Shown: one piece after another, positions 12,444 to 15,131 of the stretch
Position numbering within the stretch: the first letter of the stretch is position 1
How the letters are laid out: each line of letters starts with the position of its first letter
Origin: a virus
DNA: 23,540 bases
Strand: one strand, 5' to 3'
IMG/VR virus record: IMGVR_UViG_3300010373_000140
Coordinates: 1 to 23,540 of that record
Notes under the pieces: generated by a model
The model's database searches: none
What the model was told of the DNA's origin: nothing
The model's input: the letters and a program-made list of their open reading frames with translations, nothing else
Program-made: the position numbers and the translations under genes

Positions 12444-13127
12444 ATGCCACGCTCCAACTCGGAAGAACGCCGCGCCTACAACCGGCAATATTACGCGGAG
12501 AATCGCGCCAAAGTGCGCGAACAGCAGGCGTCGTATTATCGAAGAGAAATAGAACGCGTCCGACAGTGGCACAAAACCTATAGAGCGCAGAATCGCGACT
12601 TATGCAATCGCCGCCTGCGTCAATGGCGAGCCGAGAATCCCGAACAACAATTGGCTTTAAGTCGAAAGCATTATCGCGAGAACGCGGACAAGGCAAATGC
12701 CGCGACGAAGGCATGGCGGGCTCGTAACCATGAGCGTTACATAGGCGGCAGAATAAAGGCGCGACGCCAAAGAATACACGCGGACCCGGCCTTCGCAATG
12801 ATTACTCGCTTGCGCGCGACCCTATGGCAAGCGCTCAAAAAGCAGGGCGCGCGCAAAGTCGCACGAACCATACATTTAATCGGATGTACGGCGCCGCAAC
12901 TGGCTGCGCACATTGAATCGCAATTCACGGCGGGGATGTCTTGGGGCAATAGGCGTCTATGGCATATCGATCATATTAGACCGTGCGCGTCATTCGACTT
13001 AACCGATACTGAACAGCAGAAGGCGTGCTTTCATTATACAAATCTGCAACCGCTATGGGCGGCAGACAATAGGCGTAAAGGTGCACGAATTCAAGGAGAA
13101 AAGACTTGGCTGAAACGACTGAATTGA
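12444..13127 (+). CDS. HNH endonuclease (free-standing homing-type), copy 1
   Basis: A 227-aa protein. The N-terminal half is a series of short basic repeats of the form Y-x-x-E-N-x-x-K (for example QYYAENRAKVRE, KHYRENADKANA), typical of DNA-binding arms in this endonuclease group. The C-terminal HNH/beta-beta-alpha-metal domain is clear: WHIDHIRP, then C-F-H-Y-T-N-L-Q-P-L and N-R-R-K. These give the His-Asp-His core, the central Asn and the final Asn/Lys. It should make a single- or double-strand cut at a DNA target. The start ATG 12444 is 1 nt after the preceding stop. Its last 22 nt overlap the start of the next gene and contain that gene's ribosome binding site. More A/T-rich than its neighbours, consistent with a mobile gene. 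Confidence 0.85.
   Translation: MPRSNSEERRAYNRQYYAENRAKVREQQASYYRREIERVRQWHKTYRAQNRDLCNRRLRQWRAENPEQQLALSRKHYRENADKANAATKAWRARNHERYIGGRIKARRQRIHADPAFAMITRLRATLWQALKKQGARKVARTIHLIGCTAPQLAAHIESQFTAGMSWGNRRLWHIDHIRPCASFDLTDTEQQKACFHYTNLQPLWAADNRRKGARIQGEKTWLKRLN
13093..13098 (+). promoter_or_regulatory. Strong Shine-Dalgarno deciding a TTG start
   Basis: AAGGAG lies 7 nt upstream of the TTG at 13106 and inside the end of the HNH gene. No ATG or GTG is suitably spaced, so it fixes TTG as the start of the coiled-coil gene. Confidence 0.75.
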
Positions 13128-13417
13128 AGATTTATGATTCGCCGCTGGCTGATTTGCAGACTCAGCTCGACCATTTCAAAAGCGCCTACGACGAACTACA
13201 CGCCGAGCATACGGAGTTGCAGGCGAAGTATTCAAAGCTGGTGGACGACTACGCGGCGGCGTTGGCGAAGCTACCGCCATCCCCGCCGGAATATCAGTAC
13301 GCCGAGGATGAGTGCCGTCCGGTGACCGCGATCAAGGGCGAGACCTGCGGGATGTGCGGCTGGATGTATGGCGGCAAGCGCAAGCAGGATCGCGAACCGC
13401 ATCCCGTGAGGCGATGA
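13106..13417 (+). CDS. Coiled-coil protein with C-terminal CxxC
   Basis: A 103-aa protein starting at TTG. Residues about 14-55 (LADLQTQLDHFKSAYDELHAEH and onward) form an obvious heptad coiled coil. A Pro-rich linker follows, then CGMCG near residues 82-86 and a basic tail. One CxxC alone could bind zinc only as a dimer, which the coiled coil could provide. Function is unknown. The TGA overlaps the ATG of the second HNH gene (ATGA). If that HNH gene is an insertion, this was once directly coupled to the ATP-grasp gene. Confidence 0.72.
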   Translation: MAETTELKIYDSPLADLQTQLDHFKSAYDELHAEHTELQAKYSKLVDDYAAALAKLPPSPPEYQYAEDECRPVTAIKGETCGMCGWMYGGKRKQDREPHPVRR

Positions 13418-13452
13418 CCGACCTCTCGAAAAAGACCGTGCTGTTCTGGGAC
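13414..13452 (+). repeat. Recoded N-terminus duplication, upstream copy
   Basis: Codes for MTDLSKKTVLFWD at the start of the second HNH gene. It matches 13881-13922 (MSVDLSRKTVLIWD) at 10 of 13 aligned residues, with one codon gap. Of the eight identical residues that have alternative codons, seven use a different codon in the two copies. The similarity is therefore in protein but not in DNA. Confidence 0.75.
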
Positions 13453-13896
13453 GCGCAAGATATTGCGCGGTTCCTGTCGAAGTTTGACGCAGGTAGCGAC
13501 CGCTGCTGGCTGTGGGATGGGACAATTTACAAACCCCAGGGCTATGGGTATTTCGGTCTGCGCTGTAAGATGAAGAGCGCGCATCGCCTCAGTTACGAAA
13601 CATTTATCGGCTCCATCCCCGTCGGGATGGAGCTGGATCATTTATGCCGAGTGCGCCACTGCGTTAATCCTTGGCACTTAGAGCCAGTGACACATTTAGA
13701 GAATGTTCGACGCGGCAAAGGCATTGGAGCCGTGATTGCGCACGCCGAACGCTCAAAGACTCACTGCCCGAAAGGCCATGAATATACGCCCGAAAATACA
13801 TATCGTCACTTATCCCGAGGACGGTATCCTAGTCGGCACTGCAAGGCTTGCATGGCGTCCCGAAAACGAGCAAACGCGCGATGTCTGTCGATTTAA
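13414..13896 (+). CDS. HNH endonuclease (HNH_3-type), copy 2, with captured N-terminus
   Basis: A 160-aa endonuclease. The core reads GYGYF (43-47), AHRLSYE (56-62), ELDHLC (73-78) and CVNPWHLEP (83-91), giving D75/H76, N85 and H88, with likely zinc ligands C78 and C83. A second Cys/His cluster (C118, H122, C143, C146) follows, as in many phage HNH_3 proteins. Usual members begin about where residue 19 lies here (ARFLSKFD...CWLWDG). The extra residues 1-13 match the N-terminus of the next gene at 10 of 13 positions. It starts ATGA-coupled to the previous gene and its last 16 nt overlap the ATP-grasp gene. It appears to be a homing gene inserted at that gene's start. Enzyme class is secure; the insertion model is inference. 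Confidence 0.87.
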   Translation: MTDLSKKTVLFWDAQDIARFLSKFDAGSDRCWLWDGTIYKPQGYGYFGLRCKMKSAHRLSYETFIGSIPVGMELDHLCRVRHCVNPWHLEPVTHLENVRRGKGIGAVIAHAERSKTHCPKGHEYTPENTYRHLSRGRYPSRHCKACMASRKRANARCLSI

Positions 13897-13922
13897 GTCG
13901 GAAAACGGTCCTCATATGGGAC
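13881..13922 (+). repeat. Recoded N-terminus duplication, downstream copy
   Basis: The working start of the ATP-grasp gene, MSVDLSRKTVLIWD. It corresponds to 13414-13452, and the two TGGGAC ends lie 470 nt apart. The sequence between holds only the HNH gene body, so this pair brackets a candidate insertion. Confidence 0.75.
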
Positions 13923-15131
13923 TCGTCTGGCAGTTACACGCACATGGGGGAAGCTGTTGTCAGTGATTTTGCGCGGGTGCTCTATTACGTTCCGTGGGAG
14001 CGGGCTTTCCCGCTCCCGATTGAAGGCTCACCCGGCCTAGGCGTGGACGGGATAGAGCGATCGATGGACTTTTGGGACGACCTCGAAACCGCCGATCTGG
14101 TCGTGTTTACCGATGTCGGCAATAACTCGCTGCAAGAATACCTTCGCGCGCAAGGGATGCCGGTGTTCGGTTCGGGTGCGGCGGGAAGATTGGAGCAGGA
14201 TCGTGGACTTCTCAAGTCCGTGTGCAAAAAACAAGGTATCGGAGTCGCCGAGTATATGCCGGTTCGGGGAATCGACAATCTTCGCGAAATGCTGCTCGGC
14301 TCCGATGATGAGTGTTATATCAAAGTCTCCTATTGGCGGGGGCTTGCTGAGACTTATCACCACACATCTCCCTTCGCGACGAAGTATTGGCTGGACGATG
14401 TTTCGCTACGGGCAGGGCCATACGGTTCGCTGACCGATTTCATCATCGAAAAGCCGATAGCTGGCGATCCGTGCGTCGAGATTGGTTTCGACACCTATAC
14501 GGCAGATGGGATGTATCCCGAGACTATCGCGTATGGTTATGAGGCGAAGGACTCCGGTTTCGTCCTGAATATCAAGCCGATGCCGAAGCGTTTGCAAGCG
14601 GTGGCCGACAAGTTTGCGCCGGTACTTGCGCAATATGGCTATCGCGGCCCGATTTCGACCGAAGTGCGATGCACCCCGGACGGTGATTACTTCGTTGACT
14701 TGACCGCGCGCTTTCCTGAGCCTCCGTCATCATTGCAACGATTCATGATTGCGAATTGGGCGGAGGTGTTCTGGGAGACAGCGCACGGGCGAATCGTAGA
14801 GCCTGATTATCTCGCGCAGATCGGCGTGGAATTGATTATGAAATCGTCGTGGGGCGCGGAGCATCCGCTCGCGGTGAAAGTCGGGCGGCCAGACCGAACG
14901 ACACTGCATGGCCATTGCGTGATCGAAGGGCAGGATTACGCATCGTCGCCTGCGGAACTAGAAGAGTTCGGCGCGGCGTGCGGGATGGGCGCAACGCTGG
15001 AAGCCGCGATGGAAGATGCGCTCGACGCGGCAAAAGAGATTGAGGGCTTCCAAGTCACTTTCGACTCGGCAGCTTTGCAGGAATTAACCGAGACGATCCA
15101 GAAGGGTCGCGAACTCGGACTAACTTGGTAG
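13881..15131 (+). CDS. ATP-grasp protein, PurD (GARS)-like
   Basis: A 416-aa protein resembling phosphoribosylamine-glycine ligase and other ATP-grasp carboxylate-amine ligases. The segment GSGAAGRLEQDRGLLKSVC (97-115) matches the PurD entry to the ATP-grasp domain. K148 (YIKVS) fits the ATP-binding Lys. FIIEKPIAG (187-195) followed by EIGFDTYTADG (200-210) matches the adenine-binding strand and the acidic pair. YFVDLTARFPEPP (270-282) occupies the place of PurD's LEFNxRFGDPE, with D for the metal-binding E but T in place of N. Activity is therefore plausible but not certain. ATG 13881 is chosen over ATG 13848 because the duplicated N-terminus starts there. It has no obvious Shine-Dalgarno of its own and probably depends on the overlapping HNH gene for translation. 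Its place between portal and scaffold is odd for a purine enzyme; it might modify a peptide or virion protein. Confidence 0.78.
   Translation: MSVDLSRKTVLIWDSSGSYTHMGEAVVSDFARVLYYVPWERAFPLPIEGSPGLGVDGIERSMDFWDDLETADLVVFTDVGNNSLQEYLRAQGMPVFGSGAAGRLEQDRGLLKSVCKKQGIGVAEYMPVRGIDNLREMLLGSDDECYIKVSYWRGLAETYHHTSPFATKYWLDDVSLRAGPYGSLTDFIIEKPIAGDPCVEIGFDTYTADGMYPETIAYGYEAKDSGFVLNIKPMPKRLQAVADKFAPVLAQYGYRGPISTEVRCTPDGDYFVDLTARFPEPPSSLQRFMIANWAEVFWETAHGRIVEPDYLAQIGVELIMKSSWGAEHPLAVKVGRPDRTTLHGHCVIEGQDYASSPAELEEFGAACGMGATLEAAMEDALDAAKEIEGFQVTFDSAALQELTETIQKGRELGLTW

Follow-up and report, generated by a model that had tools for sequence, protein, structure and literature searches.

How does a nuclease gene come to occupy the very start of another phage gene and yet leave that gene whole? 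The question is raised by a 23,540-nucleotide stretch of viral DNA (the window: IMG/VR record IMGVR_UViG_3300010373_000140, positions 1-23,540, to which all window coordinates refer), where an HNH nuclease gene stands between a coiled-coil gene and an ATP-grasp gene, and the nuclease and the ATP-grasp protein begin almost alike. A preliminary description of the locus proposed that the HNH gene had invaded the 5' end of the ATP-grasp gene, taken over its start codon, and brought in a divergent replacement for the N-terminus that was lost. Empty-site relatives with the ancestral layout, the same anatomy at five more loci with nucleases of this family, and a pair of cultured phages that differ by the insertion all uphold that proposal; of the two observations that the preliminary description named as refuting it, neither turned up. 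We consider it quite probable that the unit is a phage homing element composed of an HNH_3 nuclease gene and a divergent substitute end for the gene it invades.

Two matching gene starts in the window

The HNH open reading frame (ORF; 13414-13896, N-terminus MTDLSKKTVLFWD, translation opening MTDLSKKTVLFWDAQDIARF) and the ATP-grasp ORF (13881-15131, N-terminus MSVDLSRKTVLIWD, translation opening MSVDLSRKTVLIWDSSGSY) are interlocked with each other and with their neighbor: the coiled-coil stop TGA (13415-13417) and the HNH ATG overlap as ATGA at 13414-13417, while the HNH stop TAA (13894-13896) falls within ATP-grasp codons 5-6, the last HNH codons overlapping the first of the ATP-grasp gene. 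The earlier observation is confirmed. Ten of 13 aligned residues are identical, and at seven of the eight shared residues that allow a choice the two copies use different codons (GAC/GAT, CTC/TTA, TCG/AGT, AAG/AAA, ACC/ACG, GTG/GTC and CTG/CTC; both copies spell the eighth, the final Asp, GAC). L083, a near-identical phage of a different metagenome, carries ...VLIWD at this point of its HNH protein, one residue nearer the ATP-grasp copy.

A match of merely 13 residues invites the view that the resemblance is fortuitous, or that such an N-terminus is simply typical of HNH_3 proteins. That view is largely refuted and scarcely credible. The ATP-grasp N-terminus scores 52-56 against the left flank, with the 99.9th percentile of the cross-paired null at about 42, and the similarity of the two N-termini exceeds chance. 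The nuclease matches HNH_3 (Pfam PF13392, E 1.8e-11, above the cutoff; phrog_826, E 6.8e-51) and carries the DHLCR...CVNPxHLE core, and its relatives start near the equivalent of ARFLSK; none of the HNH relatives examined has the 13-residue N-terminus. The ATP-grasp family, by contrast, has it without any HNH gene. Scans with single proteins gave just one near-identical ATP-grasp relative, the others coming from capsid and aligned ATP-grasp queries; those from the capsid-based and ATP-grasp-based scans (47-54% identity) begin MIDLSNKVCLFFD, MTDLSTKTVLFFD, MDVSRKTVLIWD, MDVSRKTVLFWD and so on, align with the window protein at their starts, and have no HNH gene there, which accounts independently for the similarity seen in the window. 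No ATP-grasp relative was found in the phage collection or in genome contigs.

In one of these relatives (L085) a homologous coiled-coil gene meets the ATP-grasp gene directly through the same ATGA overlap. Given this junction and the HNH-free relatives, the HNH protein opens with the ATP-grasp start (its first 13 residues), and its gene occupies the place where the ATP-grasp gene formerly began, reusing its start codon and coupling as had been supposed. The window ATP-grasp protein alone has no Pfam match; a 14-member profile of the target matches GAR synthetases (E 6e-13), and a structure model (predicted local distance difference test, pLDDT, 92) finds GAR synthetase structures with Foldseek (E 2e-22), so that profile and predicted fold confirm the label. 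The first beta strand comprises residues 9-13 and thus lies inside the 13 residues; the ATP-grasp start therefore matters for the fold and cannot simply be dropped.

Codon style separates the two copies. The copy at 13414-13452 is phage-typical (z +1.4; GC content at third codon positions, GC3, 0.91), the nuclease proper is unlike the phage (z -3.4, GC3 0.55), and the copy at 13881 resembles the nuclease (z -2.9 to -3.1, GC3 0.50), with the second lowest z among the 24 gene starts in the window (range -3.3 to +1.2). Because gene starts in this phage vary in z, the codon evidence from the window is modest. The features of the locus are collected in Table 1.

Table 1. Features of the invaded region in the window
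Feature	Positions	Strand	Remarks
Coiled-coil gene	13106-13417	+	Adjoins the target upstream; stop codon and ATG at 13414 overlap (ATGA), which was the ancestral junction to ATP-grasp, as in L085
Stranded original ATP-grasp 5' end, codons 1-13	13414-13452	+	In-frame fusion forming the start of the HNH gene; recognized from the N-termini of ATP-grasp relatives, phage-typical codons and absence from other HNH relatives
HNH_3 (PHROG 826) nuclease proper, presumed homing endonuclease	13453-13896	+	Profile matches; codon style unlike the phage
HNH_3 domain	~13579-13710		Within the nuclease
Replacement ATP-grasp 5' end, codons 1-14	13881-13922	+	Synonymously divergent from 13414-13452; foreign codon style may reach ~13967
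ATP-grasp (GAR-synthetase-like) target gene body	13923-15131	+	Profile and fold
TGGGAC (Trp-Asp codons)	13447-13452	+	Left junction; second copy at 13917-13922, near the end of the replacement segment

The TGGGAC pair may represent junction microhomology or just conserved codons. Directly upstream of the coiled-coil gene lies a second nuclease gene, endonuclease VII-like (phrog_1035, 12450-13127), at which no clear stranded end was seen; it is missing from L085, which indicates that the same short operon region of this phage was invaded twice.

The same anatomy at other loci

The preliminary description had recommended a search for other HNH genes whose first residues copy the downstream protein, and such genes exist. 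In a set of 198 HNH loci, one screen sought downstream gene starts recurring beyond the nuclease gene and a second sought upstream gene ends recurring likewise (an all-frames screen of the flanks was flooded by GC-rich out-of-frame matches, and the search was restricted to true gene starts). Five further clear cases emerged, involving a portal gene, a head-to-tail adaptor gene, a RecB-like nuclease gene, a lysin B gene, and a small gene affected at its 3' end. With the window included, the 5' end is thus replaced five times and the 3' end once, in the last of these cases, L146. Twenty-four of the loci screened come from cultured phages, and one of these was positive.

That one, Gordonia phage Malisha (L243, OP434458; gp29-gp30 at 1264-2546), is compared with phage Spooky, whose lysin B gene has an empty site, the clearest instance of a stranded old end and a replaced start. 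Both phages were isolated on Gordonia terrae 3612. Upstream of the element they are identical at 430 of 430 nucleotides, and the Malisha HNH gene opens with a stranded lysin B end that matches the start of Spooky lysin B at 83 of 84 nucleotides, so the earlier prediction that empty-site DNA should resemble the stranded copy holds here at the DNA level. The annotation treats Malisha gp29 as an HNH gene throughout, yet the old lysin B start makes up its first 27 residues. Beyond the nuclease, lysin B (gp30) has a replaced start of about 31 codons, in which 16 of the 22 shared codons (codons 2-33) differ synonymously from Spooky, and high identity resumes at about codon 32; against six empty lysin B genes, synonymous differences amount to 64-77% in codons 2-33 and 18-50% in the rest. 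Codon z is -3.1 in the replacement start, +1.1 beyond it and +1.25 in the stranded copy. As with the ATP-grasp relatives that have no HNH gene, the nuclease gene is present or absent at one fixed place among related phages.

A nuclease gene flanked by two similar copies could also be pictured as a tandem duplication of the first codons of the target (in the window, of the ATP-grasp gene), with the HNH gene landing between the copies and drift, not homing, making them diverge. Such a history is strongly disfavored and very improbable: in Malisha the stranded copy equals the empty-site phage and the working copy is foreign, the reverse of what a drifting duplicate predicts; in the portal, RecB-like and lysin B cases it is the working copy whose codons have the same foreign style as those of the nuclease; and the arrangement recurs at six unrelated genes.

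The portal case (L011) makes the edge of the foreign segment visible. The old portal start VTLVEVTTPPAYDD persists upstream as a 19-codon ORF that overlaps the stop of the previous gene (GTGA), followed by the HNH gene and then by the portal gene, MTLVQVENPPAYEE. Compared with six empty portal genes, synonymous differences are 45 of 56 (80%) in codons 2-15 and 10 of 38 (26%) in codons 16-30; codon z is -7.55 over codons 2-15, a value as low as none of 1213 codon windows, and +1.4 over codons 16-30. Likewise, in L165, where the HNH gene lies on the strand opposite its RecB-like target and the two starts share 16 of 20 residues (score 101, null maximum 48), z is -5.74 in codons 2-20, +0.8 beyond and -0.7 in the stranded copy. 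Gene starts of empty-site relatives, taken as a control, are near normal. In L011, L165 and Malisha, codon usage thus identifies a foreign replaced segment whose edge is sharp. Other portal genes start uninterrupted at the junction type of L011, and some have an HNH gene elsewhere upstream; HNH genes at L114 (2220-2618) and L120 (551-949), about 0.4 kb upstream of uninterrupted portal genes, represent another place of insertion close to this target family.

In L124 and its relative L216 the start of a head-to-tail adaptor gene is fused to the HNH gene. The remaining case, L146 (2081-2813), has its HNH gene at the 3' end of a 99-residue gene that follows a RecA-like gene: the sequence ending IIDWQVFKELIEGSDYE stands before the HNH gene and that ending IIDWEVFKELIRDSDYE after it, the latter being the stranded old C-terminal end and overlapping the start of the next gene. 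Nine of 13 shared codons differ, and the score is 77 with a null maximum of 56.

The stranded end provides the start of the nuclease in the window, L124 and Malisha, and in L011 the TAA of the 19-codon ORF overlaps the nuclease GTG. Since free-standing homing endonuclease genes of T4 often use translational coupling (PMC2988022, cited here and below for the part of that source drawn upon), the fused end might have been kept as a leader or for coupling, to regulate or start translation of the nuclease, any resistance to cleavage being incidental. As a full account this is unlikely. The nuclease of L165 is antisense to its target, so that the stranded end cannot start it; the stranded end of L146 lies downstream; and the replacement end is left unexplained. 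It is compatible with a homing element and not an alternative to one.

Several candidates were set aside. Both copies at L059 (2977-3520) read, as judged by eye, as a transfer RNA 3' end (VGSIPTRGT); such sequence flanks the HNH gene on both sides, and the nuclease may sit in a transfer RNA cluster. L138, L020, L056 and similar loci were of low complexity, and the high score of L245 arose only from the overlap of two search segments. At L054 (2974-3490) the HNH protein begins MALAELIERWDSGD and the downstream protein, similarly, MTIDELVAYWDSDE, a plausible though unproven case (p about 0.003-0.013) with no relatives in the phage collection. Finally, in L261 (1447-1920, Mycobacterium phage GageAP), L250, L251 and L257, HNH genes abut or overlap the starts of genes for DNA polymerase I or single-stranded-DNA-binding protein; no stranded end was detected at these four loci, and the insertions are possibly older or intergenic.

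A candidate homing cycle

The anatomy, the empty sites, the stranded ends and the localized foreign codon choice would be joined by the following cycle. In a phage without the element, the nuclease would cut the target gene close to its end, in the 5' cases within about the first 12-30 codons. Repair, for which the gene body would serve on one side and either the stranded end or the neighboring gene on the other, would bring in the nuclease gene and, with it, another version of the gene end, one that covers the cut site and specifies nearly the same amino acids by other codons. The rebuilt gene would be functional and no longer cut, its codons differing across the insertion point; we infer that recoding protects it. 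The old end would be left beyond the nuclease gene, retaining its translational overlap with the neighboring gene, and could act as the start of the nuclease and perhaps as a homology arm in the next round. In the window the target would be the ATP-grasp gene, with its stranded end fused in frame to the nuclease. A broader formulation seems to us evenly poised between right and wrong: that these loci represent a class of homing elements acting on many target genes and at either gene end, in which an HNH nuclease travels with a compact, synonymously recoded rescue of the end it destroys, a natural home-and-rescue gene drive whose codon changes were selected against re-cutting and whose stranded end serves again, as the start of the nuclease and as a homology arm.

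Ordinary intronless homing with one-sided co-conversion has a substantial though lesser claim, and we regard it as a tentative possibility. Here the diverged gene start of a donor would enter by homologous repair, the other side would be joined illegitimately and strand the old end of the recipient, and the codon differences would be donor divergence. Intronless homing with co-conversion is established in T4 (PMC2988022), the replacement in Malisha stops where a conserved block of lysin B DNA begins, a natural crossover point, and the codon style could stem from another phage lineage. Co-conversion tracts, however, should vary, whereas the replaced stretch ends just past the insertion point in all three measurable cases (codon 15 in L011, codon 20 in L165, about codon 31 in Malisha). 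Nor does any lysin B outside Malisha exceed about 76% DNA identity to its replacement start among 172 phages with a lysin B match, and in T4 the free-standing gene and its cut sites are hundreds to thousands of base pairs apart (PMC2988022). Whether resistance was selected or the donor had merely diverged, either could have produced the codon changes.

Returning to the homing element with its recoded end, several points weigh against it. Only six of the 198 HNH loci, some of them related, are clear cases, and most have no stranded end. Cleavage, resistance to it and homing are deductions from sequence, and a diverged donor allele could yield the same picture without selection for recoding. L124 is an exception in codon style, the odder codons being in the stranded and not the working copy. 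The identities between L124 and L216 (84% for nuclease plus replacement end, 65% for the upstream gene, 78% for the adaptor body) hint at movement of the nuclease and replacement end as a unit, a comparison confounded by the different evolutionary rates of the parts, to which unequal constraint could contribute. In the window, synonymous divergence of the ATP-grasp gene from its relatives is saturated (66% at the start, 61-71% elsewhere in the gene). The preliminary description had expected uninterrupted homologues joined directly to the coiled-coil gene, which L085 supplies, and DNA close to 13414-13452 at their starts, which is unreadable here: at about 50% protein identity the relatives are too diverged for window DNA to show which copy is native. 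Consequently, the direction of replacement in the window is judged from the ATGA overlap, from codon style and from what the other cases show. For the import of a divergent N-terminus as such, the empty-site relatives, the five further loci and the Malisha-Spooky pair argue together.

Known elements and implications

WHO elements of Torulaspora and Lachancea yeasts (Coughlan et al. 2020, eLife, PMC7282813) are units of a nuclease gene and a resistant gene end, in which the 3' end of FBA1 is replaced and the old end pushed outward, resistance arising from allelic difference. The preliminary description drew this comparison, and aptly: in WHO elements, as in the window, L011, L124, L165, Malisha and L146, an endonuclease gene and an adjacent replacement end keep the target whole, the old end lies beyond the nuclease gene, and the nuclease may have either orientation. 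The two differ in that WHO elements replace the 3' end. WHO proteins, moreover, are HO-related, act in yeast chiefly on one gene and a long 3' end of it, and build clusters (PMC7282813), whereas the phage elements have HNH_3 nucleases, six target genes (ATP-grasp among them) and about 12-31 replaced codons, their cleavage activity being presumed; no clusters were seen. L146 alone, with its 3' end, is the WHO layout in a virus contig. The phage elements therefore work like WHO elements but are not WHO elements by membership; they are a mirror image, and once the exact layout.

Among phage systems, the intronless homing of T4-like phages (Seg and Mob; PMC2988022) similarly involves no intron or intein, a homing endonuclease gene beside its target, co-conversion of flanks, and translational coupling; its cut sites are distant from that gene, the target is not entered, and the part of the source considered describes no stranded end or compact replacement segment. 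The insertions of mobE in Aeh1 nrdA and mobA in T4 topoisomerase gene 60 (PMC2988022) place such genes within functionally important phage genes and, according to that source, split them, whereas the present elements rebuild the gene whole with an imported end. Phage homing endonuclease genes at boundaries of genetic exchange (Barth et al. 2023, PMC10448857) likewise tie nucleases to exchange of flanking core genes, and in the part of that paper considered no end-replacement architecture was found. A literature search, mainly of open-access papers, returned no description of this architecture in phages.

The yeast WHO homing elements thus seem to have a counterpart in phages. Such an element would account for the entry of a selfish nuclease into genes of importance to a phage (portal, adaptor, lysin B, ATP-grasp) with no intron or intein involved and no gene lost, and also for the mosaic ends of some phage proteins; further, annotators mis-call such starts, as in Malisha gp29. 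With Malisha and Spooky sharing a host, G. terrae 3612, the element is directly testable. More broadly, the WHO-type architecture of yeast is extended to phages, and to the 5' ends of genes, a natural parallel to recoded-rescue gene drives.
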